Positions 11,999-38,230 of a stretch of 38,291 bases of DNA are shown in pieces. Location of the stretch: assembly GCA_011959805.1 (NCBI GenBank), contig BLMC01000023.1, forward strand, positions 1 to 38,291, given 5' to 3'. Numbering within the stretch: the first letter of the stretch is position 1; every line of letters starts with the position of its first letter. A program made the position numbers and the translations under genes. Under the pieces are notes generated by a model. The model was not told the origin of the DNA. It searched no databases and saw nothing but the letters and a program-made list of their open reading frames with translations. Source of the DNA: Lachnospiraceae bacterium (GTDB lineage Bacteria; Bacillota; Clostridia; Lachnospirales; Lachnospiraceae).

Positions 11999-12010
11999 AA
12001 TTAGCACCTC

Positions 12011-14412: not shown

Positions 14413-14753
14413 AATAATACTCCTTTCCAAATTTAAAGTTTTTGTTACAATATTCTTATACATGATTGCTACAATGATTATGAGCGTGCAAATTGGTTCT
14501 ATTTCAGCAGAACGGACTCGCACGCCATTTCTTATCTATTATACCAAGTCTCTGGCAAGACGGCTAGACCTAGCCACAAAAAAATAGCAAATTGTAACAA
14601 TCGGGGCACTAAAATTCAAAAAGCCATCAGCGTTCTTGCTGCGCGCTTCTACAATCCGCCAAAGGCATATCGGAAGAAAAAATGACTCCCGCCACTAATA
14701 CGAATAAGTTGCTTACTGCCTATAGCGACGAAAATCATTCCATATCTGATATC
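14413..14753 (-). promoter_or_regulatory. leader and promoter region of the SPFH operon
   Basis: No gene is seen. On the minus strand an extended -10 box (TGGTATAAT; TATAAT at 14538-14543) has no clear -35. Just upstream is a perfect palindrome GGCTAG-GT-CTAGCC (14562-14575 read on minus) in the -35 zone, a possible operator. The transcript would start near 14531, and its leader can fold into GCGTGC / GCACGC with an inner GTTCT / AGAAC stem (14484-14525). The rest, 14576-14753, shows no recognisable feature and no clear terminator for the large gene to the right. Confidence 0.45.
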
Positions 14754-21324: not shown

Positions 21325-21365
21325 ATTATAACTGCTTTAATATATAAGTTTGTAATTGTGATTTT
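21325..21365 (-). promoter_or_regulatory. promoter of the nrdG operon with the shared 19-base motif
   Basis: Reading the minus strand: AAAATCACAATTACAAACT, 17 bases from the end of ACAAAC, then TATAAT (21325-21330). ACAAAC sits in the -35 position and does not match a housekeeping -35, as expected for an activator-dependent promoter. The same motif and spacing precede both glycine-zipper genes (23402-23445 and 38190-38230). Confidence 0.7.
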
Positions 21366-21541
21366 GTCTCTATTTGGTCTTATGTCGGTAGCGCACACCA
21401 CAATACAAATACCAATAACATTCTTAACATGATATTTTAATTCTCATTATAATTTACTTTAGACTTTGTTTTGCACAGGTATCTGATCAGTGTAAAAAAC
21501 ATTAATCTATAATGTTAGTATACATCATTTTTTGTAGATTT

Positions 21542-21569
21542 TTGAACTATTTTCAGATATAATTATGAT
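21542..21569 (+). promoter_or_regulatory. probable promoter of the divergent regulator gene
   Basis: TTGAAC (21542-21547), a 16-base spacer and TATGAT (21564-21569) lie 33 bases before the ATG. A second possible -10, TATAAT at 21558-21563, overlaps. The remaining intergenic DNA between this and the nrdG promoter (21366-21541) is AT-rich and shows nothing else recognisable. Confidence 0.5.
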
Positions 21570-21602
21570 AATCAAAATTTATTATAATTGGAGGTTCTTT
21601 TT

Positions 21603-22925
21603 ATGAATGATGGCTTTACAATCCACAATCAAAATGATATTTATGATTATTGTTATATTGATTTTTTGGAGGAAGCTGTTGATTATCTCATTAATCCCGA
21701 TTCTTTTCGTTCATTTGGTAAAGGATTGACTGAATTACTAATAAAAAAAGGCTATTCAGGAGATACGACTAATGTGAAAGAATTATCGACATATCTAATT
21801 GAAAGATTAAGAAAAATAAATTCATCAATTGGAGCTGGAACTGTGAATTCTTGGTTTTCTGGAAATCATAGTCCAAAGATTGAGGCCGGCAGCAGAAATA
21901 AAATCTATGAAATTTGTTTTGCCTTAGAACTATCATACGAAGAAACAGTATGGTTTTTTCAGCATGTATATTATGACAGGGCATTTAACTGCCATACGAT
22001 AACAGAAGCTATCTATTATTATTGTTTCTTACATAACCAAACCTATACAGACGCGCAGGAAATTATACAGTACGTTGAAAATGCTCCTACACTTGCTACA
22101 GATTCAGAAGAAACTGCAAACTATACGCAATTTGTCAAAAATCATATTGGTGAACTTCAGTCTGTTGCAGAACTAAAAGAATTTTTAATCCAAAACAAGC
22201 AAAATTTTAATTCTTGGAATAAAAGTGCCTTAAAAACACTTAACAAGTTAGTCCTTGAACTGCTCGGTCCTCCTGAAAGTAAAACGACAATTGATACTTT
22301 AAGACAAACGATTAACAAAAATCAAAATAAAAGCGAAAATAAACTAACCTTTGATTTATCATATTATCAAAACTGTGGGTTATTAATAAGAGAACTTTTA
22401 TTCGATTCTCAAAATCCCCTTACAAACACTACAAGTTCTCCTGCACAGTATATCTATGAATTAATAGAAAACAAAAATATCCAAAAAAATAATTTTATCT
22501 TAATCCGTAGCTTGGAAACGACCAAAATTTCTCGAAAAAGTGAAAAAGTTCCAGTGCCATATATTGTACGCAACAATTTCCCAAGTCGCAAAATAATATC
22601 AGATGTTCTTTCAGAAGACAAAGTTTTGGTTTCAAAGTCCTACGATTCGATTCGTAAAATGATTATACTACTTGATTTTTGTCGTTTTTGGATAACTGTG
22701 AAACTTGAAAATGAAGATAGTAATCTCTCCATAGATGATTCATTATCAGAGATTTATCTTGAAGAAACAAACGCTTGTCTATATCAGTGTGGCTATGAAG
22801 AGTTATATGCTGGCAATCCTTACGATTGGATTTTTTTGTGTTGTGCCCGAAGTGATAATCCTCTCGAATATTTTAGATTGTTCATTGGAGAGTTATGGGA
22901 AAAAGAATCGAATGATACTGAATGA
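21603..22925 (+). CDS. putative DNA-binding regulator, divergent from the nrdG operon
   Basis: 440 residues from ATG 21603 (TTGGAGG box 9 bases upstream). The N-terminal part (about 30-130) has the look of an atypical helix-turn-helix: ERLRKINSSIGAGTVNSWFS, SPKIEAGSRNKIYEICFALE, LSYEETVWFFQHVYYDRAF and EAIYYYCFLHNQTYTDAQEI. This layout, a WF/WL-G-x-P segment followed by CFAL-LD-EE and F-x-x-x-x-EAIYYFC, recurs in uncharacterised regulators of Firmicutes. The rest has no family I can name and ends YDWIFLCCARSDNPLEYFRL. A decayed copy of the last 45 codons is found at 37758-37901, again beside a glycine-zipper gene. Divergent placement makes it the prime candidate to bind the shared promoter motif. 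Confidence 0.75.
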   Translation: MNDGFTIHNQNDIYDYCYIDFLEEAVDYLINPDSFRSFGKGLTELLIKKGYSGDTTNVKELSTYLIERLRKINSSIGAGTVNSWFSGNHSPKIEAGSRNKIYEICFALELSYEETVWFFQHVYYDRAFNCHTITEAIYYYCFLHNQTYTDAQEIIQYVENAPTLATDSEETANYTQFVKNHIGELQSVAELKEFLIQNKQNFNSWNKSALKTLNKLVLELLGPPESKTTIDTLRQTINKNQNKSENKLTFDLSYYQNCGLLIRELLFDSQNPLTNTTSSPAQYIYELIENKNIQKNNFILIRSLETTKISRKSEKVPVPYIVRNNFPSRKIISDVLSEDKVLVSKSYDSIRKMIILLDFCRFWITVKLENEDSNLSIDDSLSEIYLEETNACLYQCGYEELYAGNPYDWIFLCCARSDNPLEYFRLFIGELWEKESNDTE

Positions 22926-23017
22926 TAACTGCTTAGACTTGCTAAACTCTTCCACCTGTAAAAACTACTTTATGTTTTTATAAATTTTGTGATGTGGTAA
23001 ATATATGTTTATAAAAT

Positions 23018-23097
23018 AAAGAGTGTCTGAAAAATGTTTTCTGTCAGATGAGTATCACGCAAATGACAAAACTATTTTTCAGACACTCTTTTAAAAT
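23018..23097. terminator. 18-bp-stem bidirectional terminator, member of a dispersed repeat
   Basis: AAAGAGTGTCTGAAAAAT (23018-23035) pairs perfectly with 23074-23091 around a 38-base loop, followed by TTAAAATTTT. It separates the regulator gene from the convergent glycine-zipper gene. Its arm plus the adjoining GTTTTCTGTC recurs at 27291-27401 and, in part, at about 37965-37989, so it belongs to a dispersed palindromic family. Confidence 0.8.
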
Positions 23098-23158
23098 TTT
23101 ATACGAATCTCACTTCATGCAATAAAAAGTCTTCTATTTTTAAAGCGATAAAAATATA

Positions 23159-23359
23159 TTACCTTCTGTCTATTTCGCTTCCTATTTTATCGCCCCCTAA
23201 CAAGCCGATAATTCCACCGATAATTGCACCTGGAATTGTACCTGCAATCGCTCCAATCGGTCCTCCTGCAATTCCAATATGAGCACCCTTTACAGCTCCT
23301 GTGACTACTCCAACTATCATTCCGCCCAAACCACAAACAATTTCATTTTCTCTTTCCAT
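23159..23359 (-). CDS. 66-residue glycine-zipper mini-protein
   Basis: Starts MERENEIVCGLGGM (ATG 23359, AGGAGG 7 bases upstream) and is dominated by Gly/Ala/Ile with G-x-x-x-G spacing (GGMIVGVVTGAVKGAHIG, then GPIGAIAGTIPGAIIGGIIG), ending in a charged tail KIGSEIDRR. Two membrane-crossing hairpin helices are plausible. Glycine-zipper mini-proteins include pore-forming toxins, class II bacteriocin-like peptides and membrane-stress proteins; there is no signal peptide and no typical double-glycine leader. A truncated second copy lies at 37988-38146 with conserved upstream DNA. The shared promoter motif ties it to the nrdG operon. Function unknown. Confidence 0.85.
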   Translation of the reverse strand: MERENEIVCGLGGMIVGVVTGAVKGAHIGIAGGPIGAIAGTIPGAIIGGIIGLLGGDKIGSEIDRR

Positions 23360-23401
23360 GATGTTTCCTCCTAAAACAAGTTTGTTTTTTGTTGCATCAT
23401 T

Positions 23402-23445
23402 ATGATAACACATTGGATTATATTAGTTTGTAATTGTAATTTTTT
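23402..23445 (-). promoter_or_regulatory. promoter of the glycine-zipper gene with the shared motif
   Basis: On the minus strand: AATTACAATTACAAACT (one base different from the nrdG copy in the ATCAC part), 18 bases, then TATCAT (23402-23407) overlapping CATAAT. The -10 is about 43 bases before the ATG. Confidence 0.65.
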
Positions 23446-23589
23446 CTATTAATATTTATATATGCTATTTTTACGTGAAACTGTCCATATAGCACAGACA
23501 AAATATATATTTCTCTTCTCTCCACTTCGCGCGGGGCGTCTGTCAGCTTCTGTTGATATTTTTCCTTTAGACGTCCACGTGCATAATAA

Positions 23590-23629
23590 ATCCCCCTGCC
23601 CTCTACCAATCACTAGAGAACAAGGGGAT
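23590..23629 (-). terminator. terminator of the sugar transporter operon
   Basis: Minus strand: ATCCCCTTG pairs with CAGGGGGAT (one wobble), enclosing a second CTCTA / TAGAG stem, followed by TTATT. It lies 7 bases after the stop of the last permease gene. The 140 bases to the left of it, up to 23446, hold no recognisable gene. Confidence 0.6.
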
Positions 23630-23636
23630 AAAACCA

Positions 23637-24656
23637 TTATGCCTTTTTACTTTCTTTTACTTTGGCAAATATTGCCTGTAACAGAATAAAGAAGCAAAGT
23701 AATATCGCTGTAATAATATTCGCCCACGAGCTAACAAGCTTTCCGTTTGATTTCACAAGCGTTGAAATTGTACCGTTTATTAGCACACCGACCAAAGAGC
23801 CAAGAACATTGCCCACACCGCCAGTCAAGAGTGTTCCACCAATAACAGACGAAGAAATGGCATCCATTTCCAAACCAGTTGCCTGTGTGGTGGTACCGCA
23901 CATGGTATTTAGACAATAGCAAATACCACCAATAGAAGTCAATAAACTACACAGTGTATAAGTCATCAATTTCGTTCTTTTAACATTCAGCCCCATCAAT
24001 GTTGCAGATACCTGATTGCCTCCTACTGCATAAATACTTCTGCCAAACTTTGTATATTTTAGCATCAGGAAAACAAGAATTACAACTAAGAGTGCTACAA
24101 CAACCGTCGGCCGAATAAACGGTGTCTGATAAATTCCCTTTTTGTTGACATATCCACCAAATGGAATGCTGATTTTAGTATTAGAAATTGCCGTAAACAA
24201 TTTGTCCGAAACAATACTTACTTGATCCTTACAGATAACTGCGGTCATACCTCTGGCAAAAAACATGCCGGCCATCGTAACAATAAACGGCTGAATCTCA
24301 AGATACGCCACACAATACCCCTGCACCAATCCAAAGATAGCCCCAATCACCAACACCAATATCATCAACACTGGGCTACTCATACCCCAACGTTCCATGC
24401 CAACTGCAAGAAACATACAATCCATAGCAATCAGAGAACCAACTGAAATGTCAATGCCCCCCGTCAGCATTACACAAGTCATACCGGCTGCGACGGCAAT
24501 CAATCCTGCATTATTGATAAGTACATTCAGAAAAGTCTGAAGATGGGTAAATCCTTTGTTCGCATAAATAATGCAGCCACCAGCATACATAACAACAAAC
24601 AAAATTACAGTGATTGCCAATAATATATTATTTCCTCCAAGCTTTAATTTTTTCAT
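23637..24656 (-). CDS. yjfF: sugar ABC transporter permease (YjfF-like)
   Basis: 339-residue membrane protein of the BPD_transp_2 (ribose/galactose-type) permease family, with about ten helices. Typical segments: GLIAVAAGMTCVMLTGGIDISVGS (split here by family comparison), QPFIVTMAGMFFARGM, the KFGRSIYAVGGNQVSATLMGLNV loop that contacts the ATPase, and ISSSVIGGTLLTGGVGNVLGSLVG. Fourth gene of a ytfQ-ytfR-ytfT-yjfF order operon, the order known from the Escherichia coli galactofuranose transporter. Starts 2 bases after the preceding stop. It forms the channel with the other permease. Confidence 0.9.
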   Translation of the reverse strand: MKKLKLGGNNILLAITVILFVVMYAGGCIIYANKGFTHLQTFLNVLINNAGLIAVAAGMTCVMLTGGIDISVGSLIAMDCMFLAVGMERWGMSSPVLMILVLVIGAIFGLVQGYCVAYLEIQPFIVTMAGMFFARGMTAVICKDQVSIVSDKLFTAISNTKISIPFGGYVNKKGIYQTPFIRPTVVVALLVVILVFLMLKYTKFGRSIYAVGGNQVSATLMGLNVKRTKLMTYTLCSLLTSIGGICYCLNTMCGTTTQATGLEMDAISSSVIGGTLLTGGVGNVLGSLVGVLINGTISTLVKSNGKLVSSWANIITAILLCFFILLQAIFAKVKESKKA

Positions 24657-24658
24657 GC

Positions 24659-25720
24659 TTATGCCGCCTCCTTTGCTCCTGCCTTTTTAGCGGACAGTTT
24701 TTTGAAATAATCTTTTACCGGCTGCGACTGAATAACTACAATTAAGATTACCACAATTGCCTTAAACACGGGTGCCTGTGCAGAAGAAACACCCAGTGCA
24801 TACAATGTTGTCGTAATTGCCTGAATTGTATAGGCACCGATAATGGAACCTGCCAAATTAAATTTGCCGCCGCCAAGACTATTGCCTCCCAGTGCGACTG
24901 CAAGGATTGCATCAAGTTCCATATTTAGACCAATGTTATTGGTATCGGCAGAATAAATCCTACAAGTTGCAACCAGACCAGCGATACCTGCGCACAGACC
25001 ACAAATCACATAGCATAGTAAAATAATTTTTGCAGAATTAAAACCAGAAATTCTGGAAGCTTTTTTGTTGATGCCGACACTCTGTATATACGTTCCAAGC
25101 GCTGTCGATTTCAATACAATAGAAGCGATTGCTACACAGATTGCTGCAATCAAAATGGGTGTTGGAATAATACCGCAGTACGCACCAAAAAATTGAAAAG
25201 AAGGAACACGCACATACACAATATTACTGTTACATAAAAGCAGTCCAATTGCCCTGCCCGCAGACCACAAAATCAGTGTGGCAACCATAGGCTGTATATT
25301 CATATAAGCCACTAAAAAGCCATTGAACAGACCACATACACAAGCAATTGCAATCCCTGCAAGCATTCCTACCCAGAGTGGAACAGCATATTCACTCACA
25401 TTAGTCACACCGTAACCTGCAAGCAACATACAGCAAAGACCACCAGACAAACTCATTACAGAACCAACAGAAATATCTGTACCTGCCGACGCGGATACCA
25501 CCAATGTCATACCAATTGCTAGAATCGCCACCTCACTACCGCGATTCAATACGTCAATTAGACGCCCATACAAAATACCATTGTTAATACTTATCGAAAA
25601 GAAACCAAATGGAGCATTCCCGCTTGCAATATCGTAAATTACATTGATCATCATGACAAGAATCATACTAAAAATTGGCAGAAACAGCTTCATTTTTGTA
25701 AGTTTTTTAACTTTATCCAT
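24659..25720 (-). CDS. ytfT: sugar ABC transporter permease (YtfT-like)
   Basis: 353 residues, same family as the next gene but distinct. Signature segments: AILAIGMTLVVSASAGTDIS, the ALGTYIQSVGINKKASRISGF ATPase-contact loop, and LDAILAVALGGNSLGGGKFN. About ten helices; the C-terminal tail is Lys/Ala-rich. The start ATG overlaps the TAA of the ATPase gene (TAATG), giving tight coupling. With the yjfF-like product it makes a heterodimeric sugar channel. Confidence 0.9.
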   Translation of the reverse strand: MDKVKKLTKMKLFLPIFSMILVMMINVIYDIASGNAPFGFFSISINNGILYGRLIDVLNRGSEVAILAIGMTLVVSASAGTDISVGSVMSLSGGLCCMLLAGYGVTNVSEYAVPLWVGMLAGIAIACVCGLFNGFLVAYMNIQPMVATLILWSAGRAIGLLLCNSNIVYVRVPSFQFFGAYCGIIPTPILIAAICVAIASIVLKSTALGTYIQSVGINKKASRISGFNSAKIILLCYVICGLCAGIAGLVATCRIYSADTNNIGLNMELDAILAVALGGNSLGGGKFNLAGSIIGAYTIQAITTTLYALGVSSAQAPVFKAIVVILIVVIQSQPVKDYFKKLSAKKAGAKEAA

Positions 25721-27237
25721 TATTTTCCACCTCCCGCAATTGCTTTCATGACACCTTCTTGCGTCAAGTCGTCACCGCTAATTTCCCCGACTTTGGCACC
25801 ATCTCTAAGCACTGCCATACGATTGCAGGTACGAAGCATTTCTTCTATCTCTGAGGAAATAAACATCACACTCTTTCCCTCATCCGCCAACTTAAGCACC
25901 AACTTTTGAATCTCGGTCTTGGTTCCAATATCAATACCACGAGTTGGCTCATCAAGAATCAAGAAATCAGGGTTGGTCGCAAGCCACCTTGCCAGAATCG
26001 CCTTTTGCTGGTTTCCGCCGGAAAGCTGTTTAATTAGCGTTTCCCTACTTGCAGTCTTGATTTGTAGCATCTCAATAAATTTGTCTGCAATTTCAATCTG
26101 TTTTGCCATTGGAATTTTCTTAAAAATGCCCTGTTTTGCTTGCATTGCAAGGATAATATTTTCACGGACAGACAAATCACCAATAATCCCTTCTGCTTTT
26201 CTGTCATCTGGTAATAATCCCATTCCCAGATTCATAGCGTCAATTGGATTTTTAATGGTGACTTCTTTTCCTTTTACTTTCAATGTACCCGTCTGTGCTC
26301 TATCCGCACCGTAGATTGCACGTGCCAACTCACTTCGCCCGCTGCCAAGCAATCCAGTCAGGCCAATAACCTCGCCTTTATGTATTTCCAAGTCAAATGG
26401 TTTAATCGTTCCCGCATGACTTAACCCTTTCGCGTCAATGACAAGCGGCTCTTTTGATTTATCGCCGCTCCCTTCTTGTTTAATGCTGGCAAGGTCATCA
26501 AAATCTTTTCCCATCATAGCCGCAACCAACTTCACACGAGGAAGTTCCTCAATCGTATACTCTCCAACCAACGTGCCATTTCTAAGCACTGTAATGCCAT
26601 CACACACTTCATAAACCTGTTCAAGGAAATGTGTCACAAACATAATGCCAACACCTTTTTCACGAAGTCTTCTCATCATGACAAACAATTTTGCAACCTC
26701 GTTGTCGTCCAATGAAGAAGTTGGCTCATCCAGAATTAAAACCTTGCAATCCATATCCACTGCGCGGGCAATCGCAATCATTTGTTGTAGTGCAAGCGAG
26801 TATTCTTCCAAATTCTGCGTCACATCAACATCAAGTTCCAATTCTTGCATTAATTTTGCAGCCATCTCATTCATTTTCCTTCTATTTACCGTGTGAAACT
26901 TTGTCATTGGTTCCCGACCGATAAATAGATTTTCTGCCACGGATAAATTGGGACACAAGTTGACTTCTTGGTATACAGTAGAAATTCCTTTGCGCTGCGC
27001 ATCGAGGGTATCTCGATTTACAATAGGTCCGCTAATACCATCGAGATGAATCTCTCCAGCTTCAAACTTATTGACCCCGGTAAGACATTTAATCAGTGTG
27101 GATTTTCCGGCACCATTTTCGCCCATGAGCGCACGAATTTCGCCCTTTCTTAGATTAAAATCCACATTTTGCAACGCTTTTACACCGGGAAAGGTCATAC
27201 AGATTCCTTTTGCACTCAAAACAATATTTTTGTCCAT
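25720..27237 (-). CDS. ytfR: sugar ABC transporter ATP-binding protein, two ATPase domains (YtfR-like)
   Basis: 505 residues with two fused nucleotide-binding domains, as in all RbsA/MglA/YtfR proteins. Domain 1: Walker A GENGAGKST, signature of the LALQQM type, Walker B VLILDEPTSSLD. Domain 2: GLLGSGRSELA (the usual degenerate Walker A), LSGGNQQKA signature, LILDEPTRGID. ATG 27237 (MDKNIVLSAKG) is chosen for its GGAGATGGCG context; a start 16 codons upstream would lack a ribosome binding site. It powers uptake by the two permeases downstream. Confidence 0.92.
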   Translation of the reverse strand: MDKNIVLSAKGICMTFPGVKALQNVDFNLRKGEIRALMGENGAGKSTLIKCLTGVNKFEAGEIHLDGISGPIVNRDTLDAQRKGISTVYQEVNLCPNLSVAENLFIGREPMTKFHTVNRRKMNEMAAKLMQELELDVDVTQNLEEYSLALQQMIAIARAVDMDCKVLILDEPTSSLDDNEVAKLFVMMRRLREKGVGIMFVTHFLEQVYEVCDGITVLRNGTLVGEYTIEELPRVKLVAAMMGKDFDDLASIKQEGSGDKSKEPLVIDAKGLSHAGTIKPFDLEIHKGEVIGLTGLLGSGRSELARAIYGADRAQTGTLKVKGKEVTIKNPIDAMNLGMGLLPDDRKAEGIIGDLSVRENIILAMQAKQGIFKKIPMAKQIEIADKFIEMLQIKTASRETLIKQLSGGNQQKAILARWLATNPDFLILDEPTRGIDIGTKTEIQKLVLKLADEGKSVMFISSEIEEMLRTCNRMAVLRDGAKVGEISGDDLTQEGVMKAIAGGGK

Positions 27238-27290
27238 ATCGCCATCTCCTCTCCAGAGTTTTTCTGTAAAAATGAATGTACACAACAGTA

Positions 27291-27401
27291 GAGCATGTTT
27301 GAAAAATCATTTCTGCGCGCCGCGCGTACCAGTTTACACAAACTTCCCTATTCTCCTACAAACACTGTACATCAGACAGAAAACATTTTTCAAATATGCT
27401 C
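27291..27401. repeat. dispersed palindromic repeat between binding protein and ATPase genes
   Basis: GAGCATGTTTGAAAAAT (27291-27307) pairs with 27385-27401 with one mismatch, around a 77-base interior. Read on the minus strand, the arm continues GAAAAATGTTTTCTGTC, matching the hairpin at 23018-23091 and the partial copy near 37965. This is probably a REP- or MITE-like element of this genome. Confidence 0.65.
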
Positions 27402-27419
27402 TTGCAGCGCCAAATATGT

Positions 27420-27446
27420 GAGGGGAGAAAAACAAGTTCTCCCCTC
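27420..27446 (-). terminator. hairpin after the binding-protein gene, possible attenuator
   Basis: GAGGGGAGAA and TTCTCCCCTC form a perfect 10-bp stem with a 7-base loop, 40 bases after the binding-protein stop. There is no T run on the minus strand. Hairpins in this position often stabilise the upstream mRNA or dampen readthrough, which would make the binding protein more abundant than the ATPase and permeases. Confidence 0.6.
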
Positions 27447-27486
27447 TGCCAACACATCTTTTCTGTTATAAATCTATAGGAACAAA

Positions 27487-28617: not shown

Positions 28618-28672
28618 TTTTATTTCCTCCCAAAATGATCTTTGTCAGAAGCTTTTTAACTCCTGTAAGATA

Positions 28673-28701
28673 ATTTTAACGCAAAATTATTTGTGAATCA
28701 A
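28673..28701 (-). promoter_or_regulatory. promoter of the sugar transporter operon
   Basis: Minus strand TTGATT (28696-28701), 17 bases, TAAAAT (28673-28678), about 55 bases before the ATG. Spacing and sequence fit a housekeeping promoter. Confidence 0.7.
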
Positions 28702-29312
28702 CCTTGTTTTGTGCATTTTATATAATTTCGTACAAGTAAACAATACAAATTTATGCATATTTCATGTTTTTTTGGTACTAATTCTATATAATAAGTATAA
28801 TATCTTATGATTTAGTGTAATATTTTATGATTTTAATGCAAAATCAGGGTATTTTTGACAGAATTTGCGTATTGAATTCTTTTTTATTTACAAAAAAATT
28901 GAACAAATTATTAAGAAACTTTGAATATTTTAAGCAATGTATGAACAAAATAAGAAAATTTTCACTATTTTATTGAATGTAAAATCGAAAAATAAATCTG
29001 GAAATATTGTGTAGAGACAATTTATTTTCCCTACTTGCACATTGGACGTGAATAGCCTGCATAATTCCTCTTTGCGTTCGTATGCATAAAAAGAAGCACA
29101 AAAGTTGTCCGTTATAACCAAATATGTTAAAGAAAAAGGGCTATCGGTAAAATGATATGCCCTCCTTCAATCAATCTTTATGCACAGGAAACATAGAAAA
29201 TATTTTCCTGATGGTACAAGCTTAACTACTTCCATAAAACATAATAATTTGCGACAATACGCAATAGCGGACCATCCTATCAATCATTGATTGTAAAAAC
29301 TGTATCCATTTC
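28702..29312. other. AT-rich intergenic region without genes
   Basis: About 610 bases between the sugar transporter promoter and the end of hsdR. No start codon with a ribosome binding site leads into a plausible protein on either strand, and no strong terminator is visible after hsdR; a short TCAATCA / TGATTG palindrome lies near 29279-29293. Nothing else was recognised. Confidence 0.6.
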
Positions 29313-32300
29313 CTAAGCCCCTCTCTTATATCGTGTATACACATACGTATAAATTTTCTGTCGGTAATCTGAAATGCTAACTTCGTCATAGCATACTGGT
29401 AATTCTGCCCAGAGTGTATCTCGAATAAGATTCTCTATTTCCGCTCTTGTATCTTGTTTATCCGTCCAATGATCAAACTCAGAAATTTTGGCTTTTATCT
29501 TCTGAAGCAGTGTAACCGCAACCCCTTTCAGTTTCTTAATATCATTTTTATTCAAATCAGCTCGAAACAGCATATCATACAGAGAAAGTTCCTCATCACT
29601 TGTAAAACCCTCGCGCGCATAACGCTGTTCTTCCTGATTCATTTGATTTGCCAAATTCATCAAGTCCATAAAAGTCTTTTCAATTGTCGCTCTATCCTGC
29701 TCACTGTTGTAATCATTAATAATTTGCTGATATCGCTCATAATAATTAATGCGGTCAGGATTTGCAAACAACATTTTATTCAATTTCTGCTCAAGAACCT
29801 CCTCTAAATCCTTCATTACCAGATTCTTTTTGTGAACCTTTGCAAATTCTCTGGAAAGTAAATCAAAATCAATAGCACTAATATCAAACCAATGTGGTTT
29901 TTCGCAAACCTTCATGGAGATAGGCTCAGTTTCTATGTAAGAACTAATAATATTATTAATTTCAATCATTAAATCTGTGGTGTCAATTTTCTTGCGCTTT
30001 TTTTGAAGTTCTCCATAAATGGCTGCAATCGCTTCACACTGTTTTCGTGTGTGTCCTATAACATCCGTTCTGTTAGCATACTTAATCAATCTATTTAATT
30101 CCGAAGCATACGTCGTAAAAGTCTTTTTATCTTGGATAGAACCGCATACTGCATTGGCTGCATTCTGCAAATAAGAAAGTTTCTTAAAGTCTGTTGCGCC
30201 AATTAACATTTCCAAATCAAAATTTTTCTCTAGTAAAAAAGATTCCGCTTTGCCAATTGTCTCCACAATTCGCACAATCAACTTGTCTTTATCTACTGTA
30301 GGGTCTGTAACAGGATTGCCTTCTATGTTTGTGGTATAATCTGCAAGCGCTTTTCTAAGTGCCTTGACAATACCAATATAATCGATAATCAATCCATTAC
30401 TTTTTCCTTCATCCACACGATTTGCACGCGCAATCGTCTGCATAAGCGTATGTGCTTTTAAAGGCTTGTCCAAATACAAACAAGACAGACATTTCACATC
30501 AAAACCAGTAAGCCACATTGCACAGACAAATACAACACGAAATGGATTTTTACTGTCTTTAAATTCCTTGTCTAGCTTACGCTTTTCCATCTTTGCACGA
30601 TGATATTTAATATCGAACCCCCATTTCTGAAAGGTCTGAATTTCATTTTGGTCTTGGCTGATAACAACAGCCATCTCTGTTTCCTGCATCCATTTTAGCT
30701 TGCACTCAAGTGATTGCGCTTCTTGTTGCGTAGCCTTCTTAATTTCGGCTTTTAAACTTTTAATTTCTTCTTTCCAATACTCCTGAACAAATTCATACAT
30801 ACGAACACAAGTCACTTTATTTAAACAGACAAACATCGCCTTTCCACTTGTCCACAAGTCAGTATAATGTCCAACAAAATCTTTTGCAATCGCGCGAAGT
30901 CTTGGCTCTGCAGTAAGTATGTGGATTTCGTTTGCAAATTCTTGTTCTAATTTACCTTGCTGATTTTCATCAATATCTGCATTTTCAATCGCCTCTAAAA
31001 TCTGATTTGTAATTTCTGGATTTTGTAAATCGAGAATTTTCTCACCGCGATTTTCATAGTAAAGTGGTACAGTTGCGCCGTCTTCAACCGCTCTCTTAAA
31101 GTCATATATGGAGACATAACCGCCAAAAGTACGCGCAGTAATATTATCATTGGAAAGCAATGGTGTTCCTGTAAAACCAATACGAGCCGCTGTTGGTAAC
31201 AGATCCATCATGTTATTGGCATAGATACCATTTTGGCTGCGATGTGCTTCGTCGGACATAATAATCACATCATGATCCAAGTAAATTGGCTCTGGATTTG
31301 ATTGATGAAACTTTTGTATCAAAGTAAAAATAAAACTTGGATTGCCATGCAACTTCTGTATAAGGTCATTACCGCTTGTGGCAATATACTGTGAAGCCTT
31401 TATATCTTTCCCCAGCAAGCCACAGTTTTCAAACGTATCACTAATTTGTGTATTTAATTCCTCACGATCTGTAAGAATAACAAATGTAGGAGCGCCTTCT
31501 ACTTTTCTGCGCACTTTTTTTGCAAAAAACACCATAGAATAGCTCTTTCCTGAACCCTGTGTATGCCAAAATACACCTAATTTTCCATCGTTCAACTTTC
31601 TCGCAGCATAGGCCTTGATCGCTTCATTGACTCCAAGATATTGGTGATTTCGGGCAAGAATCTTTGCTGTACGTCCATCAGAATGGTCGTAGAGAATAAA
31701 ATTCTCAAATAGGTCAAGAAAGTTTTCCTTTTTGCAAATGCCGCGCAGCATGGTTTCAAGCGCTACACTTCCTTCATCTGTTTCTGCAAGACGTTTCCAC
31801 TCATGAAAAAATTCAAACTTGCTTCCGAGAGTGCCTATCTTAGCCTCCACTCCATTGGAAAGCATCACAAAAGCATTGTAATAAAATAGTTGCGGAATGG
31901 TATCCTGATAATCTGTATAGTTACCATCATAGGCATTCTGCACATCTATTGTGTTGTTTTTTAATTCCACAAACAACAGTGGAATCCCATTGACAAAACC
32001 GACAATATCAGTTCTGCGGTGATATAAATCACCCTCAATTTTTAACTCTTTAAGCGCTAGAAAATTATTGTGATCTGGGTTTTGAAAATCAATCACAGTC
32101 GCTTTCTTTATCTCTGTTTGACCGTTTGGTTTTTTTACTGTGACAGGAATCCCATCACGAATCAAAAAATACTTTTCCTCATTCACTTGTAAGAGAGAAG
32201 ATGTAGAAATTCTATTTTCTAAAAGTTTCTGTGCCTCTAAAATCTGGTTTTCATTTATCCAAGGATTAAATTCTTTCAGTGCCTTGCGAAAATAGCGAAG

Positions 32301-32456
32301 CAAAAGGACTTCATGATAACTTTCTCTGCCAAAAGTGCCATCTTTTCCTAATCGTTCTGCATGATAGGCAAGTTCAACATCCCACTTTAACTCATTATGA
32401 AGTAGATTGCAGGCACTCTCTTGGATAAGAATATTTTCGGAATAATCGTTACTCAT
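29313..32456 (-). CDS. hsdR: type I restriction enzyme, R subunit (motor and nuclease)
   Basis: 1047 residues. N-terminal PD-(D/E)xK nuclease domain with D150, E164 and K166 (RTDIVGF...LFVELKN); superfamily 2 translocase with Walker A GSGKS (301-305), DEAH box (402-405, SDEAHRSQ) and the TGFD / QTIARANR motifs; C-terminal helical domain that binds the methylase core. HsdR pumps DNA past the bound complex and cuts unmodified DNA at a distance. Start ATG 32456 has AGAGGTGA upstream. Last gene of the hsdM-hsdS-X-Y-hsdR operon. All catalytic motifs look intact. Confidence 0.95.
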   Translation of the reverse strand: MSNDYSENILIQESACNLLHNELKWDVELAYHAERLGKDGTFGRESYHEVLLLRYFRKALKEFNPWINENQILEAQKLLENRISTSSLLQVNEEKYFLIRDGIPVTVKKPNGQTEIKKATVIDFQNPDHNNFLALKELKIEGDLYHRRTDIVGFVNGIPLLFVELKNNTIDVQNAYDGNYTDYQDTIPQLFYYNAFVMLSNGVEAKIGTLGSKFEFFHEWKRLAETDEGSVALETMLRGICKKENFLDLFENFILYDHSDGRTAKILARNHQYLGVNEAIKAYAARKLNDGKLGVFWHTQGSGKSYSMVFFAKKVRRKVEGAPTFVILTDREELNTQISDTFENCGLLGKDIKASQYIATSGNDLIQKLHGNPSFIFTLIQKFHQSNPEPIYLDHDVIIMSDEAHRSQNGIYANNMMDLLPTAARIGFTGTPLLSNDNITARTFGGYVSIYDFKRAVEDGATVPLYYENRGEKILDLQNPEITNQILEAIENADIDENQQGKLEQEFANEIHILTAEPRLRAIAKDFVGHYTDLWTSGKAMFVCLNKVTCVRMYEFVQEYWKEEIKSLKAEIKKATQQEAQSLECKLKWMQETEMAVVISQDQNEIQTFQKWGFDIKYHRAKMEKRKLDKEFKDSKNPFRVVFVCAMWLTGFDVKCLSCLYLDKPLKAHTLMQTIARANRVDEGKSNGLIIDYIGIVKALRKALADYTTNIEGNPVTDPTVDKDKLIVRIVETIGKAESFLLEKNFDLEMLIGATDFKKLSYLQNAANAVCGSIQDKKTFTTYASELNRLIKYANRTDVIGHTRKQCEAIAAIYGELQKKRKKIDTTDLMIEINNIISSYIETEPISMKVCEKPHWFDISAIDFDLLSREFAKVHKKNLVMKDLEEVLEQKLNKMLFANPDRINYYERYQQIINDYNSEQDRATIEKTFMDLMNLANQMNQEEQRYAREGFTSDEELSLYDMLFRADLNKNDIKKLKGVAVTLLQKIKAKISEFDHWTDKQDTRAEIENLIRDTLWAELPVCYDEVSISDYRQKIYTYVYTRYKRGA

Positions 32457-32470
32457 ATGGTCACCTCTCT

Positions 32471-33556
32471 TTAAATTAAATCAGGTATTCTCTTATCACA
32501 TCTCTTTGCATTGGTATGTGCTAACACTTTTCCGACACTTGTTATTGAAAAACCTCTTGAAATATCTTCCCACCAAACTCTAACAGTTCTTAAAGACTCA
32601 AAAGAATCCCACATATCCATAAATTTTTTATTTACTTCATCTTGAAGTTGATCATCAGTATCATACATATCCCATATTGAATATAAAGCATTAACTTCTT
32701 TCTCATTCAAATTTCTTGTTCTATTTGCATTAACCAATTCCATATTATGAATGGCATCTTTATTAAATATTGGCAAACATACATGCCCATCTAAAAATGG
32801 ATTATTAATTAAAACTTCCTGAGACAGCTTGATATTTGCTAATAAGTCTAGTGTCCGTCTATAATTATCTGACTGCTTTTTTATACCAATACAAGCATAT
32901 CCATTTAATTTTTCTGTATAATATTCTGAAATCTTTTTCATACTACCAAACGTATTAATTCTGATAGCACCTAAAACGTCTAAATGATCAAGCCAATCTA
33001 CTCCTTCTGGTAATTTTTCATAAATAAGCCTTGTAAAAAGCTGATTCAAATTTTGAAGTCCTTCTTTTGCTGTTTCTTGCATTGGTACAAATGAGCTAAT
33101 TGCATGAGCTACTGTAAGGGCACAAAGAGCATCATTATCAATCATCCCTACAATTTCTGTCGCTTTTTGAATCCCTATTCTATTTTTCCTATTAGCTCCT
33201 TTTTCAACATGTGCAATTATTAATTCCGTTAATAGTTCATAGTCCTCTTTCCTATCAGAAACTGCAGCCGAGCGCTGTGCATTTTTTAATTGTACTTGAA
33301 ACACAGGATCAGCGAACATTGGAATGGCATTTTCTATTTCCTCAATTCTAGGTAACAACTTATTTTCAAAACATGTTATTCTTTCTTCAGCAATCCTATA
33401 TGCTTCTTTTGTATAATCCTGAATTGACATAGGAACTAATGCCTTAAAAATATTGGCAACATCATTTGCTGAAAATCCATTATTCACTGTAACTGATTCA
33501 GCCTGAATCTGTTGTGCATCATCTCCTGCTTTTTGTATCTGCTTGCTATTTTCCAT
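32471..33556 (-). CDS. LPO_1073/Vpar_1526-like accessory protein of the type I system
   Basis: 361 residues, soluble, mainly helical. The N-terminus carries the motif QIQKAGDDAQQIQ followed by VNNGFSAND; then YTKEAYRIAEERITCFENKLLPRI, DPVFQVQLKNAQRSAA, DYELLTELIIAHVEKGANRKNR and IDNDALCALTVAHA. From memory this resembles the LPO_1073/Vpar_1526 family found with restriction and other defence genes; function unknown. ATG 33556 is preferred over TTG 33571 because GGGGGTG precedes it; it overlaps the small membrane gene by 11 bases. Its position between hsdS and hsdR implies co-expression with the restriction enzyme. Confidence 0.75.
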   Translation of the reverse strand: MENSKQIQKAGDDAQQIQAESVTVNNGFSANDVANIFKALVPMSIQDYTKEAYRIAEERITCFENKLLPRIEEIENAIPMFADPVFQVQLKNAQRSAAVSDRKEDYELLTELIIAHVEKGANRKNRIGIQKATEIVGMIDNDALCALTVAHAISSFVPMQETAKEGLQNLNQLFTRLIYEKLPEGVDWLDHLDVLGAIRINTFGSMKKISEYYTEKLNGYACIGIKKQSDNYRRTLDLLANIKLSQEVLINNPFLDGHVCLPIFNKDAIHNMELVNANRTRNLNEKEVNALYSIWDMYDTDDQLQDEVNKKFMDMWDSFESLRTVRVWWEDISRGFSITSVGKVLAHTNAKRCDKRIPDLI

Positions 33557-33824
33557 TTCTAACACCCCCAACCTGCGTTTGTTCTGCCCTATCTCCTGCT
33601 TTTTGCGTCTGTTTTATGGTATTTCTAATTTTATTCTCTCCCTTAATATTTTTATCTTGCAATCTAAATTCCTGTTGCTGTTTTGCATCATCTCCCGCCT
33701 TCTGTCGTTGCTTTCCTTTATTATGAATACCAATCTGATATCCGCCAATTCCTCCTATAATCACTCCTACAATTCCTGATAAGATTGTTGTCCCAATTCC
33801 ACTAAATATCCATTCATACCACAT
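33546..33824 (-). CDS. 92-residue membrane protein with two QKAGD motifs
   Basis: One N-terminal glycine-rich membrane helix (about 8-32, TTILSGIVGVIIGGIGGYQIG) followed by a polar, basic, glutamine-rich tail. The tail contains RQKAGDDAKQQQ and TQKAGDRAEQTQ, near copies of the motif at the start of the next protein (IQKAGDDAQQIQ). It starts 2 bases after hsdS ends and overlaps the next gene, so it is part of the operon. The shared motif suggests that the two accessory proteins interact, perhaps tethering one to the membrane; this is inference. No family was recognised. Confidence 0.8.
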   Translation of the reverse strand: MWYEWIFSGIGTTILSGIVGVIIGGIGGYQIGIHNKGKQRQKAGDDAKQQQEFRLQDKNIKGENKIRNTIKQTQKAGDRAEQTQVGGVRNGK

Positions 33825-33826
33825 AT

Positions 33827-34972
33827 TTAAACCTCAATCCTTCCATCCATAAGTTTGGGTAAAAGTCTATTTCTTGCTTCTTTTATTAATTGTATTTGAG
33901 CATTCAATATCTCTATTTTCTTATGATAACTCTCACTATATATATTAAAATATAGTTTTATATTCTTAGTAGGAATATAAACTTGTATTTCTTCAAGCAT
34001 CCGCTTTGTAAGAAATTTAATTGTAGAACCACTTGCTCCTTGAAATAAACTTTTCATATTTGCTCTAACCGCATAATACAACAAAAATAAATTACTTTTA
34101 TTAATTGGAGAAAATATATATGTTCTCTGATAAGCTTCAAATTTCCCTCTATAAAGTTTAACATTAAAATCTCCATTACCCGCTAAGATTACAGCATCAC
34201 AATCAAATGAATATGATGGAGCTTTTATTGGTTCTTGTGCACAAGTAAAAAATAAATATTCTCCATCATTCGTTCCATAATTAGCATCTTTTTTACCTGT
34301 TAATATTGGTGCAATATCTACTAACCCAACCTTTTTCCACCCCTCTGGTACACCATCAACAACTTTCGTATTTTCATACCCCGGAAAATGCAAATCCACA
34401 AACCATTCCTTATATAAACACTGTGCTGCTTCCTCTAACAATTTAATTTGCTTTTGGTTATTTTCGATAAGGTCATCAAAAGGTTTCAATATTTTAACAA
34501 CTTTTTCTTGTACATCATATGATGGAACTTCTATTTCCATTTTCCGAAGCGCTGTAAGACTAATTGTCCTTTGTGCTGCTCCAAGTGCAACTGTATCAGC
34601 TTTCATATAAAAATCTCTACTAAGCATCATATAATATAAGAATCTTGACACTATTTTTTTTGGATCTGGACGTAAAATTGCAATATGTCTTTGAAATACA
34701 AATTTTTGTTCTTTATCTATAAATACGGGGATTCCAAATGACCCCACAACAGAATAAAGAATATCTCCTGTATGCGCCCTTCTTTTATCATTCAAATTAT
34801 CATAATACTCCTGAGAAACAAACATTGTACCAGTAAAATCAAGTTTGTTTGTATTTGTAATATTTGAAATCGTTACAAAGGAAATACCACTATCCGATTT
34901 GGGTGGTGGTTGATGATCTCCATCCGCAATAGAAATGCAAACATCCTCCAGCATTATTTTTGTCCAACTCAT
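33827..34972 (-). CDS. hsdS: type I restriction-modification specificity subunit
   Basis: 381 residues with two target recognition domains: the first about 1-165 (MSWTKIMLEDVCISIADGDH start, QRTISLTALRKMEIEVPSYDVQEK end) and the second about 210-350 (WKKVGLVDIAPILTGKKDANYG, SGSTIKFLTKRMLEEIQVYIP). Each is followed by a coiled-coil spacer (LIENNQKQIKLLEEAAQCLY and KKIEILNAQIQLIKEARNRLLPKL). Each domain reads one half of a split DNA target. ATGA overlap with hsdM. No second hsdS fragment or invertase is visible in the window, so no sign of phase-variable shuffling. Confidence 0.93.
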   Translation of the reverse strand: MSWTKIMLEDVCISIADGDHQPPPKSDSGISFVTISNITNTNKLDFTGTMFVSQEYYDNLNDKRRAHTGDILYSVVGSFGIPVFIDKEQKFVFQRHIAILRPDPKKIVSRFLYYMMLSRDFYMKADTVALGAAQRTISLTALRKMEIEVPSYDVQEKVVKILKPFDDLIENNQKQIKLLEEAAQCLYKEWFVDLHFPGYENTKVVDGVPEGWKKVGLVDIAPILTGKKDANYGTNDGEYLFFTCAQEPIKAPSYSFDCDAVILAGNGDFNVKLYRGKFEAYQRTYIFSPINKSNLFLLYYAVRANMKSLFQGASGSTIKFLTKRMLEEIQVYIPTKNIKLYFNIYSESYHKKIEILNAQIQLIKEARNRLLPKLMDGRIEV

Positions 34973-36789
34973 AACCCCATCTCCTTCATATTCTTTGAGA
35001 TGGTATCCATCAAGTCATTTGATTCTGCCTGTAATGCTAATAGTTCTTGGTGAATTTCTGTCATACGTTCTTCAAAGTTTACACCATCCTCCTCCACTGG
35101 CGCTACACCAACATAGGCTCCCGGTGTTAGCGACCAACCTTTTGCCTCAATCTCTGCAATCGTAGCAACTTTGCAAAGCCCAAGAACATCTACATATACG
35201 CCATCACCAAATTTTTCATACAGCCAGTTTGCTTCCTTGGCAATTGTAAGCATTTCAGAAAGTTCTGCAAGCTTAATATCATATTCTTCCTGTGTCTTTT
35301 TCTTTTCGCGCTTTTGCGCTTCTTCCACAGCTTTTTTCGCTTCCGCTCTAAGACTTTTTTCCTTTTCTAAAAGCACTTGTACTTGTTCCACAAAAGGTTT
35401 TTTACTGTTAAGAATTGTATGGTATTCTTCCATAAGGCTAGAATATTTATCTATTTCACCACGATACAGCCATACAATTGCATTGATATTTTTAAGCTGC
35501 CACTCTGACCATTCATTTAAGGTACGGTCAATTACTGTATAATAATTTCTCACATCAATAAAAAGTATGTTGTCCTTTTTCGTTTCATCTTTCCCTTTAT
35601 CAAAAAACCAAAGGGAACAAGGAAGCGACTTTGTGTAGAAGAAATTATTCCCAACGCTAATCATAATGTCTACATGACCTGTCTTAATCAGTTTTTCTCG
35701 AATATCTTTATCCTTGCCTTGACTATCTGTAGAGGAAGAAGCCATGACAAAGCCAGCACGTCCATGCGCATTTAAATAGCTGTAAAAATAGGAAATCCAG
35801 AGATAATTTGCATTTCCAACTTCTTTATTTTTATTCACACTTGGCATACCAAACGGCAATCTACCTGCACTTTCACATGATTCTGATTTTACCTTGTCCA
35901 CATTAAAAGGAGGATTTGCCATGACATAATCACAACAACCATTCAGATTATGCGAATCATGATAAAAACTATTTGCTTCATCACCAGATTGAATAACCCC
36001 AGTAAGTCCATGAACCGCCATGTTCATCAGACAAAGTTGCGCATTGTACTCCACCTTTTCCTGACCATAAAAAGTCATTGTGCTATTTGCATTCATACCA
36101 GATTGATTGACAAAATCTCCAGATTGAATAAACATTCCGCCGGAACCACAGGCTGGATCAAGGAGAACACCACTAAAAGGCTCAATAATATTTACAATCA
36201 TTTTCACCAATGATTTCGGAGTGAAAAACACCCCGTCATCAGAGGCAATATTTTTGGCAAACTTGTTGAGAAAATATTCATAAATGCGTCCAATAATATC
36301 CCCGCCCACTTCATCAAGCGCACTATTATTAAAAATGCGAAGAAGTTCTGACAAAATTTCATCCGAAAAATTAGTATAGCTCTTTGGAAGAACCCCTGTG
36401 AGTTGTTCACTCTGGTCTTCAATAAGCAACATTGCATTGTTCACCACTTCACCCAGACTTGTCATTGTATGGCCATCTTTATTTATAAGTTCCATAACAG
36501 AGATATCCTCTGGAAGATTTAAGAGATAATCATATTGTGCTTCTTTGGGTAGAAATAGCGCGCTCTTTGCTATAAAATCACTTGCTTCCACTGGCAAAAC
36601 ACGTCTCCCACGGGAAGGACGTCCTTTTAAGATTTCCGTCTCTACCATTTTAAACCTGCTGTATGCATAGCGCAGAAAAATAAGGCCAAGTACCGGCATA
36701 CAATATTGATTTGATGTAAGTTTAGAACCAGAACGCAATAAATCCGCGGACTCCCACAATTCATTTTCTAATTTACGAATATTTATCAT
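34969..36789 (-). CDS. hsdM: type I restriction-modification DNA methyltransferase subunit
   Basis: 606 residues. N-terminal helical domain (ELWESADLLRSGSKLTSNQY), then the N6-adenine methylase fold with SAM motif DPACGSGGMF (211-220) and catalytic NPPF (292-295). A long C-terminal part includes a charged coiled coil (about 480-540, KEKSLRAEAKKAVEEAQKRE). It methylates adenines of the HsdS-defined target and, with HsdR, cuts unmethylated DNA. First gene of the operon; GGAGGA precedes ATG 36789. Confidence 0.95.
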   Translation of the reverse strand: MINIRKLENELWESADLLRSGSKLTSNQYCMPVLGLIFLRYAYSRFKMVETEILKGRPSRGRRVLPVEASDFIAKSALFLPKEAQYDYLLNLPEDISVMELINKDGHTMTSLGEVVNNAMLLIEDQSEQLTGVLPKSYTNFSDEILSELLRIFNNSALDEVGGDIIGRIYEYFLNKFAKNIASDDGVFFTPKSLVKMIVNIIEPFSGVLLDPACGSGGMFIQSGDFVNQSGMNANSTMTFYGQEKVEYNAQLCLMNMAVHGLTGVIQSGDEANSFYHDSHNLNGCCDYVMANPPFNVDKVKSESCESAGRLPFGMPSVNKNKEVGNANYLWISYFYSYLNAHGRAGFVMASSSTDSQGKDKDIREKLIKTGHVDIMISVGNNFFYTKSLPCSLWFFDKGKDETKKDNILFIDVRNYYTVIDRTLNEWSEWQLKNINAIVWLYRGEIDKYSSLMEEYHTILNSKKPFVEQVQVLLEKEKSLRAEAKKAVEEAQKREKKKTQEEYDIKLAELSEMLTIAKEANWLYEKFGDGVYVDVLGLCKVATIAEIEAKGWSLTPGAYVGVAPVEEDGVNFEERMTEIHQELLALQAESNDLMDTISKNMKEMGL

Positions 36790-37184
36790 TTGGTTTTATC
36801 CTCCATTGTATTTTTATAGTTTCTTATCTAGTCAATTATGCTTCTTCTATACTATCGTTATGACAGATAAACGATGTGGAAAAGAACTCCATTTTTATAT
36901 GTGGCTCATCCCACTCCACAAGCCCCCTATCTATAAGAAAAATATAATTTAGTACCGCTTTTTCTTTTTATCTTAACATATATAGATTGATTTCAAAATA
37001 CTTTTATTATGATTTTGCAGGATCCCGTTTCAGGCAATGTTACTTCTCACAGGTAGCAAACTGTTGAATAAATCTTTACACCCTTTATATAATCTGTTAT
37101 GGTTAAGATGTAACAATCAGTATAAATCAAAAGAATGACGGATAAAATTTAGTACCTTTTCGTATTGTTTTGGGAGGTAAAAAA
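36790..37184. promoter_or_regulatory. divergent control region between hsdM and a small unknown gene
   Basis: 395 bases without a gene. An inverted repeat ATCGTT-N10-AACGAT (36854-36875) lies about 70 bases before hsdM. Nearer to hsdM on the minus strand is a TTGACT box (in AATTGACTAG) with an imperfect -10. This is a possible operator and promoter for the restriction operon. The remainder, 36876-37165, is AT-rich with no clear signal; GGGAGGT directly before 37185 serves the plus-strand gene. Confidence 0.4.
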
Positions 37185-37676
37185 ATGGAGCATTGGAGAG
37201 AAAATTTAAAAAATAAGCCTCTGAAATATTGGATTCGGATTGAAATTGAAGAAATAGTAAAGGAAAAATCAATTGACAGAAAACTATTTTATGAATATTC
37301 AAAAACAAAGTACCAAAAAGTTATCAATAGATTTTATTATGCATTTGTAGATTATAAGAATTATCCAGAAGTTGAACTCCGTTATTGCTGGTTGCATTTT
37401 CGACAGGAACTAACGCAAATAGATTTCGTTAGCGAAACAATTGGTTGGAAATGTATGCTTGCAAAAATAAAAGAACAGTTATCTTACGATTGGAATAAAA
37501 AGATTTATCTAATTCTTTCTGATGGTTGGGTTTATGAAGGATATATTGATAGTATCATTGATGTGCTTAATGAAGTTGATGGACTGTTGGAAGATTTTTA
37601 TATTGTTACTCCGCAATTCGATAAATTTGCGGCATATTCTGATGATGGCCAGTGCCTAATTTTTTATGAAAAGTAA
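37185..37676 (+). CDS. 163-residue protein of unknown function
   Basis: Soluble, aromatic- and Lys/Glu-rich protein (MEHWRENLKNKPLKYWIRIE start). The second half reads KKIYLILSDGWVYEGYIDSI, then LEDFYIVTPQFDKFAAYSDD and an end in LIFYEK. This W-x-YEGY ... LEDFYIV ... FD arrangement resembles small proteins of the DUF6756 or immunity-like type, from memory and with low certainty. ATG 37185 is set by GGGAGGT 8 bases upstream. No membrane segment or signal peptide. It stands alone between the restriction operon and the decayed regulator-peptide module. Confidence 0.75.
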   Translation: MEHWRENLKNKPLKYWIRIEIEEIVKEKSIDRKLFYEYSKTKYQKVINRFYYAFVDYKNYPEVELRYCWLHFRQELTQIDFVSETIGWKCMLAKIKEQLSYDWNKKIYLILSDGWVYEGYIDSIIDVLNEVDGLLEDFYIVTPQFDKFAAYSDDGQCLIFYEK

Positions 37677-37757
37677 TATTGTGTATTAAAATTTATTTTA
37701 GCGATTCTATTTTAGATAATATTTACTTTTCAACATTGAATTGACCATAATTGTTAA

Positions 37758-37901
37758 ACAAAATACGGTTATGAAGATTTATATGCCGGAAATGCTTATG
37801 ATTGGATTTTCTTATGCTGTTCCCGAAGCGACGATCCTATTGAATATTTTAGATTACTCATGGGAGAGTTATGGAAAAAATCCAATGATACTGAATGCTA
37901 A
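37758..37901 (+). pseudogene. decayed copy of the 3' end of the divergent regulator gene
   Basis: From 37764 the frame reads YGYEDLYAGNAYDWIFLCCS, then RSDDPIEYFRLLMGELWKKS and NDTEC-stop, matching the last 45 codons of the gene at 21603-22925 with a few substitutions and one codon missing. A TAA at 37755-37757 closes the frame upstream and there is no start. As with the intact gene, a glycine-zipper gene follows on the other strand. Confidence 0.85.
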
Positions 37902-37987
37902 TTGCTTAACTGTTTTGTATTTGTATGAATTTTATGACATATCAAACATTTGTTTGCAATATAAAGTGTGTCTGAAACTGTTTTCTG

Positions 37988-38146
37988 TCAAGAGTGTATT
38001 ACACAAATAACTGCACACGGAATTGTACCTGCAATCGCTCCTACTGGTCCTGCTGCAATTCCAATATGAGCACCATTTATAGCTCCTGTAACTGCTCCTG
38101 CTATCATTCCACCTAAACCACAAACAATTTCATTTTCTCTTTCCAT
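37988..38146 (-). pseudogene. truncated second glycine-zipper gene
   Basis: The first 43 residues closely match the 66-residue protein at 23159-23359 (MERENEIVCGLGGMIAG, then GAHIGIAAGPVGAIAGTIP). The sequence then runs into CAVICVIHS and a stop at 52 residues instead of the second zipper and charged tail. Compared with the first copy, about 170 bases are missing: the 3' end of the gene and the right arm of the terminator hairpin. The start, AGGAGG box and upstream promoter are conserved, so a short peptide could still be made. Confidence 0.75.
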
Positions 38147-38189
38147 GATGTTTTCCTCCTAAAACAACTTTGTTTTTTGTTACATCATT

Positions 38190-38230
38190 ATGATAGCACA
38201 GGAATTATATTAGTTTGTAATTGTGATTTT
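38190..38230 (-). promoter_or_regulatory. promoter of the truncated glycine-zipper gene with the shared motif
   Basis: Minus strand AAAATCACAATTACAAACT, identical over all 19 bases to the nrdG operon copy, then 17 bases from ACAAAC to TATCAT (38190-38195). Conservation here, next to a decayed gene, is useful for defining the functional motif. Confidence 0.65.

Follow-up and report, generated by a model that had tools for sequence, protein, structure and literature searches.

In the stretch of Lachnospiraceae bacterium DNA analysed here (contig BLMC01000023.1, 38,291 nucleotides, hereafter the window), a gene for a 440-residue protein of an unnamed family lies divergent to a gene set that begins with an nrdG-like activase gene and continues with an NrdD-type gene and a gene for a large kinase–STAND–TPR protein. 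Three promoters of the window, namely that of nrdG and those of two glycine-zipper genes, carry the same 19-base motif at the place of the −35 box. This motif recurs beside the undescribed, predicted DNA-binding protein at like loci in distantly related gut bacteria, pointing to a small inducible gene programme in which the motif is probably the binding site of the adjacent protein.

The motif in the window and its own genome

The three sites that a sequence-only reading of the window had placed before nrdG, zipper gene 1 and zipper gene 2 were found again, with the end of the second corrected from 23445 to 23443, and direct reading bore out the distances that it had given between ACAAAC and the −10 boxes (Table 1). 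AAAATYACAATTACAAACT has three matches in the window against 0.10 expected, a number reached in 0 of 100 shuffles. The own genome, an assembly of 4.25 Mb that is 86.5 % complete, has 25 matches to the motif with Y at position 6 at up to three mismatches, as opposed to six for a reversed-pattern control; four are exact, none has one mismatch, two have two and 19 have three. One of the four exact matches, at C213:3020, lies outside the window ahead of a third zipper gene (L004). The two-mismatch matches (C30 and C45) as well as a bipartite match on C2 fall within reading frames and were taken as chance.

The zipper-2 region arose as a duplicate of the zipper-1 region and has decayed; it includes a remnant of the 440-residue gene, and its zipper frame is the shorter of the two (52 vs 66 residues). 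Since the promoters of zipper 1, zipper 2 and the C213 zipper gene are duplicates, the own genome offers two independent promoters, that of nrdG and that of the zipper genes. The earlier claim that the shared motif is more than duplication thus stands for nrdG against the zipper genes, and for the relatives described below, but not among the zipper genes themselves, which count as one promoter. Type I restriction–modification genes (HsdR, HsdS and HsdM) occupy positions 29313–36789, between both zipper loci.

Table 1. Features of the window, listed with strand and supporting detail
Feature	Position	Strand	Detail
Motif AAAATCACAATTACAAACT before nrdG	21347..21365	−	0 mismatches; also recovered by expectation-maximization without a prior
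−10 box TATAAT, nrdG promoter	21325..21330	−	17 bases from ACAAAC
Motif before zipper gene 1	23425..23443	−	1 mismatch
−10 box TATCAT, zipper 1 promoter	23402..23407	−	18 bases from ACAAAC
Motif before zipper gene 2	38212..38230	−	0 mismatches
−10 box TATCAT, zipper 2 promoter	38190..38195	−	17 bases from ACAAAC
440-residue regulator candidate, unnamed family	21603..22925	+	XRE-type helix-turn-helix modelled at residues 37–126, then helical C-terminal part
Sigma-70-like promoter TTAACA-18-TATAAT that could serve the 440-residue gene	21424..21453	+	11/12; consensus match only; scan total 14 vs 12.8 expected by chance
Remnant of second 440-residue gene	37749..37895	+	last 50 residues, 73 % identity, one stop
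Glycine-zipper gene 1, 66 residues	23159..23359	−	PF13488 20.6 bits, below cut-off 25
Glycine-zipper gene 2, shortened duplicate, 52 residues	37988..38146	−	
nrdG-like radical SAM activase, first gene after nrdG motif	20769..21254	−	Fer4_12 3e-26; TIGR02491 90.8 bits, below cut-off 126.1
NrdD-type glycyl radical protein	19096..20763	−	PF13597 407 bits; TIGR02487 370.5, over cut-off 326.35
Ser/Thr kinase–STAND NTPase–TPR protein, 1425 residues	14754..19031	−	Pkinase 52.5 bits, over cut-off
SPFH/Band_7_1 protein with zinc ribbon	13102..14523	−	ribbon match under cut-off
Zinc-ribbon protein, YdjG-like place in cluster	12011..13096	−	all matches under Pfam cut-offs
TPM-domain protein, YdjH-like place	11192..12007	−	PF04536 104.4 bits, cut-off 22.1

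Motif, spacing and orientation at homologous loci

Of 299 genomes of the family and 392 of the order, 13 each have a homologue of the 440-residue protein (the own genome being counted in both); homologues also occur at 23 named loci, whereas plasmid and phage records gave none at 1e-5. Thirty distinct loci besides the window were compared (12 around family homologues and the 23 named, with five taken as common to both because their contigs have equal length), and in 29 of these a gene matching the window's kinase–STAND–TPR protein lies near the homologue, the match covering only part of its length in the distant loci. In the exception, L085, a C-terminal piece of the kinase–STAND–TPR gene is located on another contig.

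Expectation-maximization (EM), run from random starts and without a prior on 22 regions between the 440-residue gene and its divergent neighbour, returned gAAATCAgAATTACAAAcT, the same motif as in the window, with a posterior of at least 0.96 in 12 of the 22 regions (L083 among these being weak). The log-likelihood was 120.7, compared with 48–57 in eight Markov controls that had fewer starts and iterations. A bipartite pattern consisting of the motif and the −10 box, with at most one mismatch, has 19 matches in 13 of 24 loci, window included, while 300 permutations of its motif letters gave a mean of 0.16 matches and a maximum of 3; the pattern letters were picked after the sites had been seen, which makes this count partly circular, unlike the EM result. 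When the −10 box was not required, TANNNT lay exactly 17 bases away in 13 of 15 exact motif heads, and among heads with one mismatch in 22 of 34. The 19 bipartite matches are all on the strand opposite the 440-residue gene. Lachnoanaerobaculum OBRC5-5, one of the bacteria with a homologue, has three sites. Aligned, the sites are conserved in AAA-TCASWATTACAAA and in the −10 box (both partly by selection); the spacer shows a weak TACA block, a G precedes the −10 box and the flanks carry about 0 bits. The motif head reads as two hexamers, TYACAA-TTACAA.

The sites also agree with the tree of the protein. A branch with support of 100/99 splits the 24 homologues into groups of 15 and 9, and bipartite sites are present in 13 of the 15 on one side and in 0 of the 9 on the other. 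A label count that set 13 rows with a site against four with an antisense site, leaving out seven rows, needed a single change, which was reached in 0 of 500 shuffles. De novo search in the sister clade gave a weak motif (61.8 vs 40–52) resembling a −10 region. Related sites in that clade (L075 11202, L076 7302, L077 11208 and L078 11201) lie just past the stop of the 440-residue gene and point into it, so that they would make antisense RNA; the related motif has a −10-like box at 17 bases.

Across the 24 genomes, the bipartite pattern has 51 matches, against 27 for a reversed control. Seventeen are exact, and 12 of these fall at the 440-residue locus, the window remnant accounting for one. 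Of two further exact matches, one stands before the zipper gene of C213 and the other, on G639 C90, before a gene whose zinc-ribbon matches are weak (listed for G182/G639 C90); those on G639 C39, G646 C41 and G000 C2 overlap reading frames and were set aside. Distant targets are few. In the 392 genomes of the order, a longer pattern has six exact matches, three in G000, two in G182 and one in G532; G000 and G182, which hold five of the six, both have site-clade homologues. The G532 match (C186; L172 295–333) is at a contig end, where several neighbouring frames start with zinc-ribbon-like CxxC motifs. One-mismatch matches to the 19-mer in G054, G067, G128 and G279, genomes of the family with no 440-residue homologue at 1e-5, were discarded, as they show no bipartite site at up to two mismatches.

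The 440-residue protein as a candidate activator

A small regulon with the divergent 440-residue protein as the best candidate for its regulator, as the sequence-only reading had proposed, is supported by the motif, its spacing and its orientation at 13 of 24 loci, by the split in the tree and by a modelled helix-turn-helix (HTH). Residues 37–126 of the structure model adopt an XRE-type HTH fold, and their leading structural matches include RRNPP/XRE regulators (PlcR, ComR, Rgg and PrgX), the SaPI repressor and Stl. The C-terminal part is helical in the model; structure comparison past residue 126 returned low, unrelated-looking rows that say nothing on the fold of that part. Pfam, NCBIfam and PADLOC yielded no useful match for the protein, and a profile search of solved-structure sequences with the family gave one chance-level row (E 7.1). 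Within the partial texts covered by a literature search, no published description of the family together with a kinase–STAND gene was recognized.

The same reading had left open an activator or an alternative sigma factor. The latter is disfavoured by the SigA-type −10 box and by the absence of a sigma domain match (Pfam gave none for 24 family members, nor did NCBIfam for the protein of the window). The fixed spacing and the missing −35 box instead suggest an activator assisting sigma at −35: ACAAAC shares one of six letters with TTGACA, and a sigma-70 consensus scan leaves the nrdG and zipper-1 promoters unflagged. The motif, then, is probably the site at which the adjacent XRE-type protein acts as an activator of promoters without a usable −35 box. 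By covering the −35 place at a fixed distance, the bound protein would either substitute for sigma region 4 or hold it. The kinase–STAND–TPR protein may be the sensor that switches it, as their linkage suggests, and upon stimulation a small set of operons would be turned on, including the sensor's own, which would amount to positive feedback. Targets switched on in the window would be nrdG–nrdD and the glycine-zipper proteins, and those in relatives would be SPFH, KAEK-type small proteins, radical SAM genes, IRG-like GTPases and viperin.

A number of observations weigh against this assignment. For the HTH part, the structural Z stays below 8, with unrelated rows beginning at 4.8 and going down, and sequence comparison gives it little support (hhalign P 0.029, probability 1.7 %). 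In L063 and L069 a gene other than the kinase gene follows the site, and L065 and L084 are on the site side of the tree yet lack a site. Kinase genes of the sister side have no motif before them, and in four members of that side the related site lies in antisense orientation at the end of the 440-residue gene. In the genome scan with a −10 box, envisaged in the sequence-only reading, exact matches concentrate at 440-residue loci; elsewhere the surplus is small, as 32 matches remain after subtraction of the 19 in modules, against 27 in the reversed control. Likewise, the longer pattern with up to one mismatch has 29 matches in the 392 genomes of the order against 23 in its control, and only exact ones stand out. 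Of those, the one in G532 is in a 76 %-complete genome in which no homologue was found, while no long-pattern match occurs in G440 despite its homologue at 3e-105.

The strongest rival holds that the 440-residue XRE-type protein is a repressor on the motif, keeping operons off until the sensor removes it. Many XRE proteins are repressors; two of the leading structural matches, the SaPI repressor and Stl, fit this view, Stl being a repressor as is the further match PrgX, and the site overlaps the −35 place. However, the 17-base distance to the −10 box, fixed in most exact heads, is not something that a repressor needs, and neither the nrdG nor the zipper-1 promoter contains a TTGACA-like −35 box that could be blocked, such that repression is considered unlikely. 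More improbable still is that the motif is read by some other factor, be it a sigma or a global regulator encoded elsewhere, with the 440-residue gene a mere neighbour. Some sites are indeed on contigs other than that of the 440-residue gene (C213, G643 C71 and G639 C90), and there is the exact site in a genome without a detected homologue; against this, five of the six exact long-pattern sites are in genomes with site-clade homologues, the motif follows the tree of the 440-residue protein and the −10 box is SigA-like. That the shared motif reflects only duplication of one promoter within the genome is scarcely credible, for although duplication accounts for the three zipper promoters, that of nrdG is unlike them outside the motif and −10 box, unrelated genes of other species are preceded by the same motif, and both the de novo search and the bipartite-pattern count in relatives reject duplication as the sole cause.

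For the 440-residue protein as an activator, several known systems offer likenesses and differences. The RRNPP/XRE regulators PlcR, ComR, Rgg and PrgX resemble it in having an N-terminal HTH followed by a helical part, as modelled here, and several regulators of this group are activators; the difference is that the linked partner of the 440-residue protein is a kinase–STAND–TPR protein. Streptomyces AfsK/AfsR also combines Ser/Thr kinase, STAND and TPR parts with an activator (a SARP–STAND–TPR protein), whereas here a single protein contains all three parts and the DNA-binding part resides in a separate, XRE-type one. According to one report, AfsR and PafBC are activators helping sigma at −35, the AfsR site overlapping the −35 of a promoter in which that element is poor and PafBC activating promoters with a suboptimal −35; the distance to the −10 box is 8 bp for the SARP 3′ repeat (PMC10936776) and 17 bases for ACAAAC here. 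SARP DNA-binding and BTA Pfam domains had no match in the kinase–STAND–TPR protein or the 440-residue family. BrxR-family genes adjoin defence systems (PMC9122601). BrxR, a repressor, and PafBC are WYL-domain regulators, whereas 24 members of the 440-residue family gave no WYL match.

Genes behind the motif and their possible role

The gene after the site is the kinase gene in L066, L067, L068, L070 and L074. In L064, the site is followed by nrdG, nrdD and the kinase gene, while the second site of L074 is followed by NERD and then nrdG and nrdD, and its third site has EcsC as the next called gene, about 1 kb further along. Additionally, the site precedes SPFH in L085, zipper in L063 and, in L069, DUF3846 with a KAEK-type gene further on. 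In L071 (site 9577; gene 8725–9549) and L073 (gene 8971–9804), both loci of Selenomonadales relatives, viperin directly follows the motif promoter, with scores of 250.1 and 259.6, respectively, against an NCBIfam viperin cut-off of 180. After the L071 viperin gene come a second radical SAM gene and two IRG-like GTPases; the first GTPase passes the IIGP cut-off (35.0 vs 24) and the second just misses it (23.3), although both pass MMR_HSR1. L072 has IRG-like genes and a viperin remnant. On G643 C71 (L133 4089–6258), four small, mutually similar genes of the KAEK type, which have a DUF4112 match under the cut-off, form a cluster with four one-mismatch sites; two of the four sites are about 40 bases before KAEK-type genes, and the SPFH gene beside the cluster is 56 % identical to that of the window.

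The gene order after the nrdG site of the window is nrdG, nrdD and kinase–STAND–TPR, and then, past a 230-base gap, SPFH, zinc-ribbon and TPM. The gap leaves room for a promoter of the SPFH gene's own, at a level not above chance (two found, 1.4 expected). In the 1425-residue protein, the kinase-loop and Walker A motifs are present, STAND/AAA_16/NB-ARC matches are under cut-off and TPR matches were found; its kinase part resembles the defence kinases PD-T4-6 and MkoA. In Bacillus subtilis, the pspA-ydjGHI envelope-stress operon is under sigma-W control. SPFH, zinc-ribbon and TPM genes occur together at 11192–14523 (the zinc-ribbon matches being under cut-off) and so repeat the SPFH/band-7, zinc ribbon and TPM set of that operon as described in two reports (PMC11237479, PMC9239133). 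No PspA match was found among the proteins of 11192–21254, the part of the genome that was searched for it.

An antiviral or envelope-damage response is suggested because of the target content, that is, the viperin and IRG-like genes of relatives, the type I restriction genes of the window and the SPFH–zinc ribbon–TPM set. Prokaryotic viperins, present in L071 and L073 and not in the window, are here tied by a promoter motif to a kinase–STAND module. A tentative extension, more doubtful than the regulatory assignment, is a bacterial counterpart of an interferon-type programme, in which the STAND kinase would sense phage or envelope damage and the XRE-type activator would turn on one promoter class of antiviral and membrane effectors, the set varying by species; viperin, IRG-like GTPases, an ATP-cone-less ribonucleotide reductase, NERD, SPFH and glycine-zipper proteins would be among these effectors. 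Should the 440-residue protein act through the motif, an unnamed protein family would gain a function, a DNA site and a partner together, the genes behind the motif in other genomes would become predicted members of the same response, and antiviral-type genes such as those for viperin and IRG-like GTPases would be linked to an inducible regulator.

The NrdD of the window, the third of its genome, is without the N-terminal ATP-cone region. In local alignment it is 22–24 % identical to the other genomic NrdD proteins, on C42 and C3; it keeps the MGCR, RVSGYL and Zn-type Cys motifs, and it has relatives in the L064 and L074 modules.

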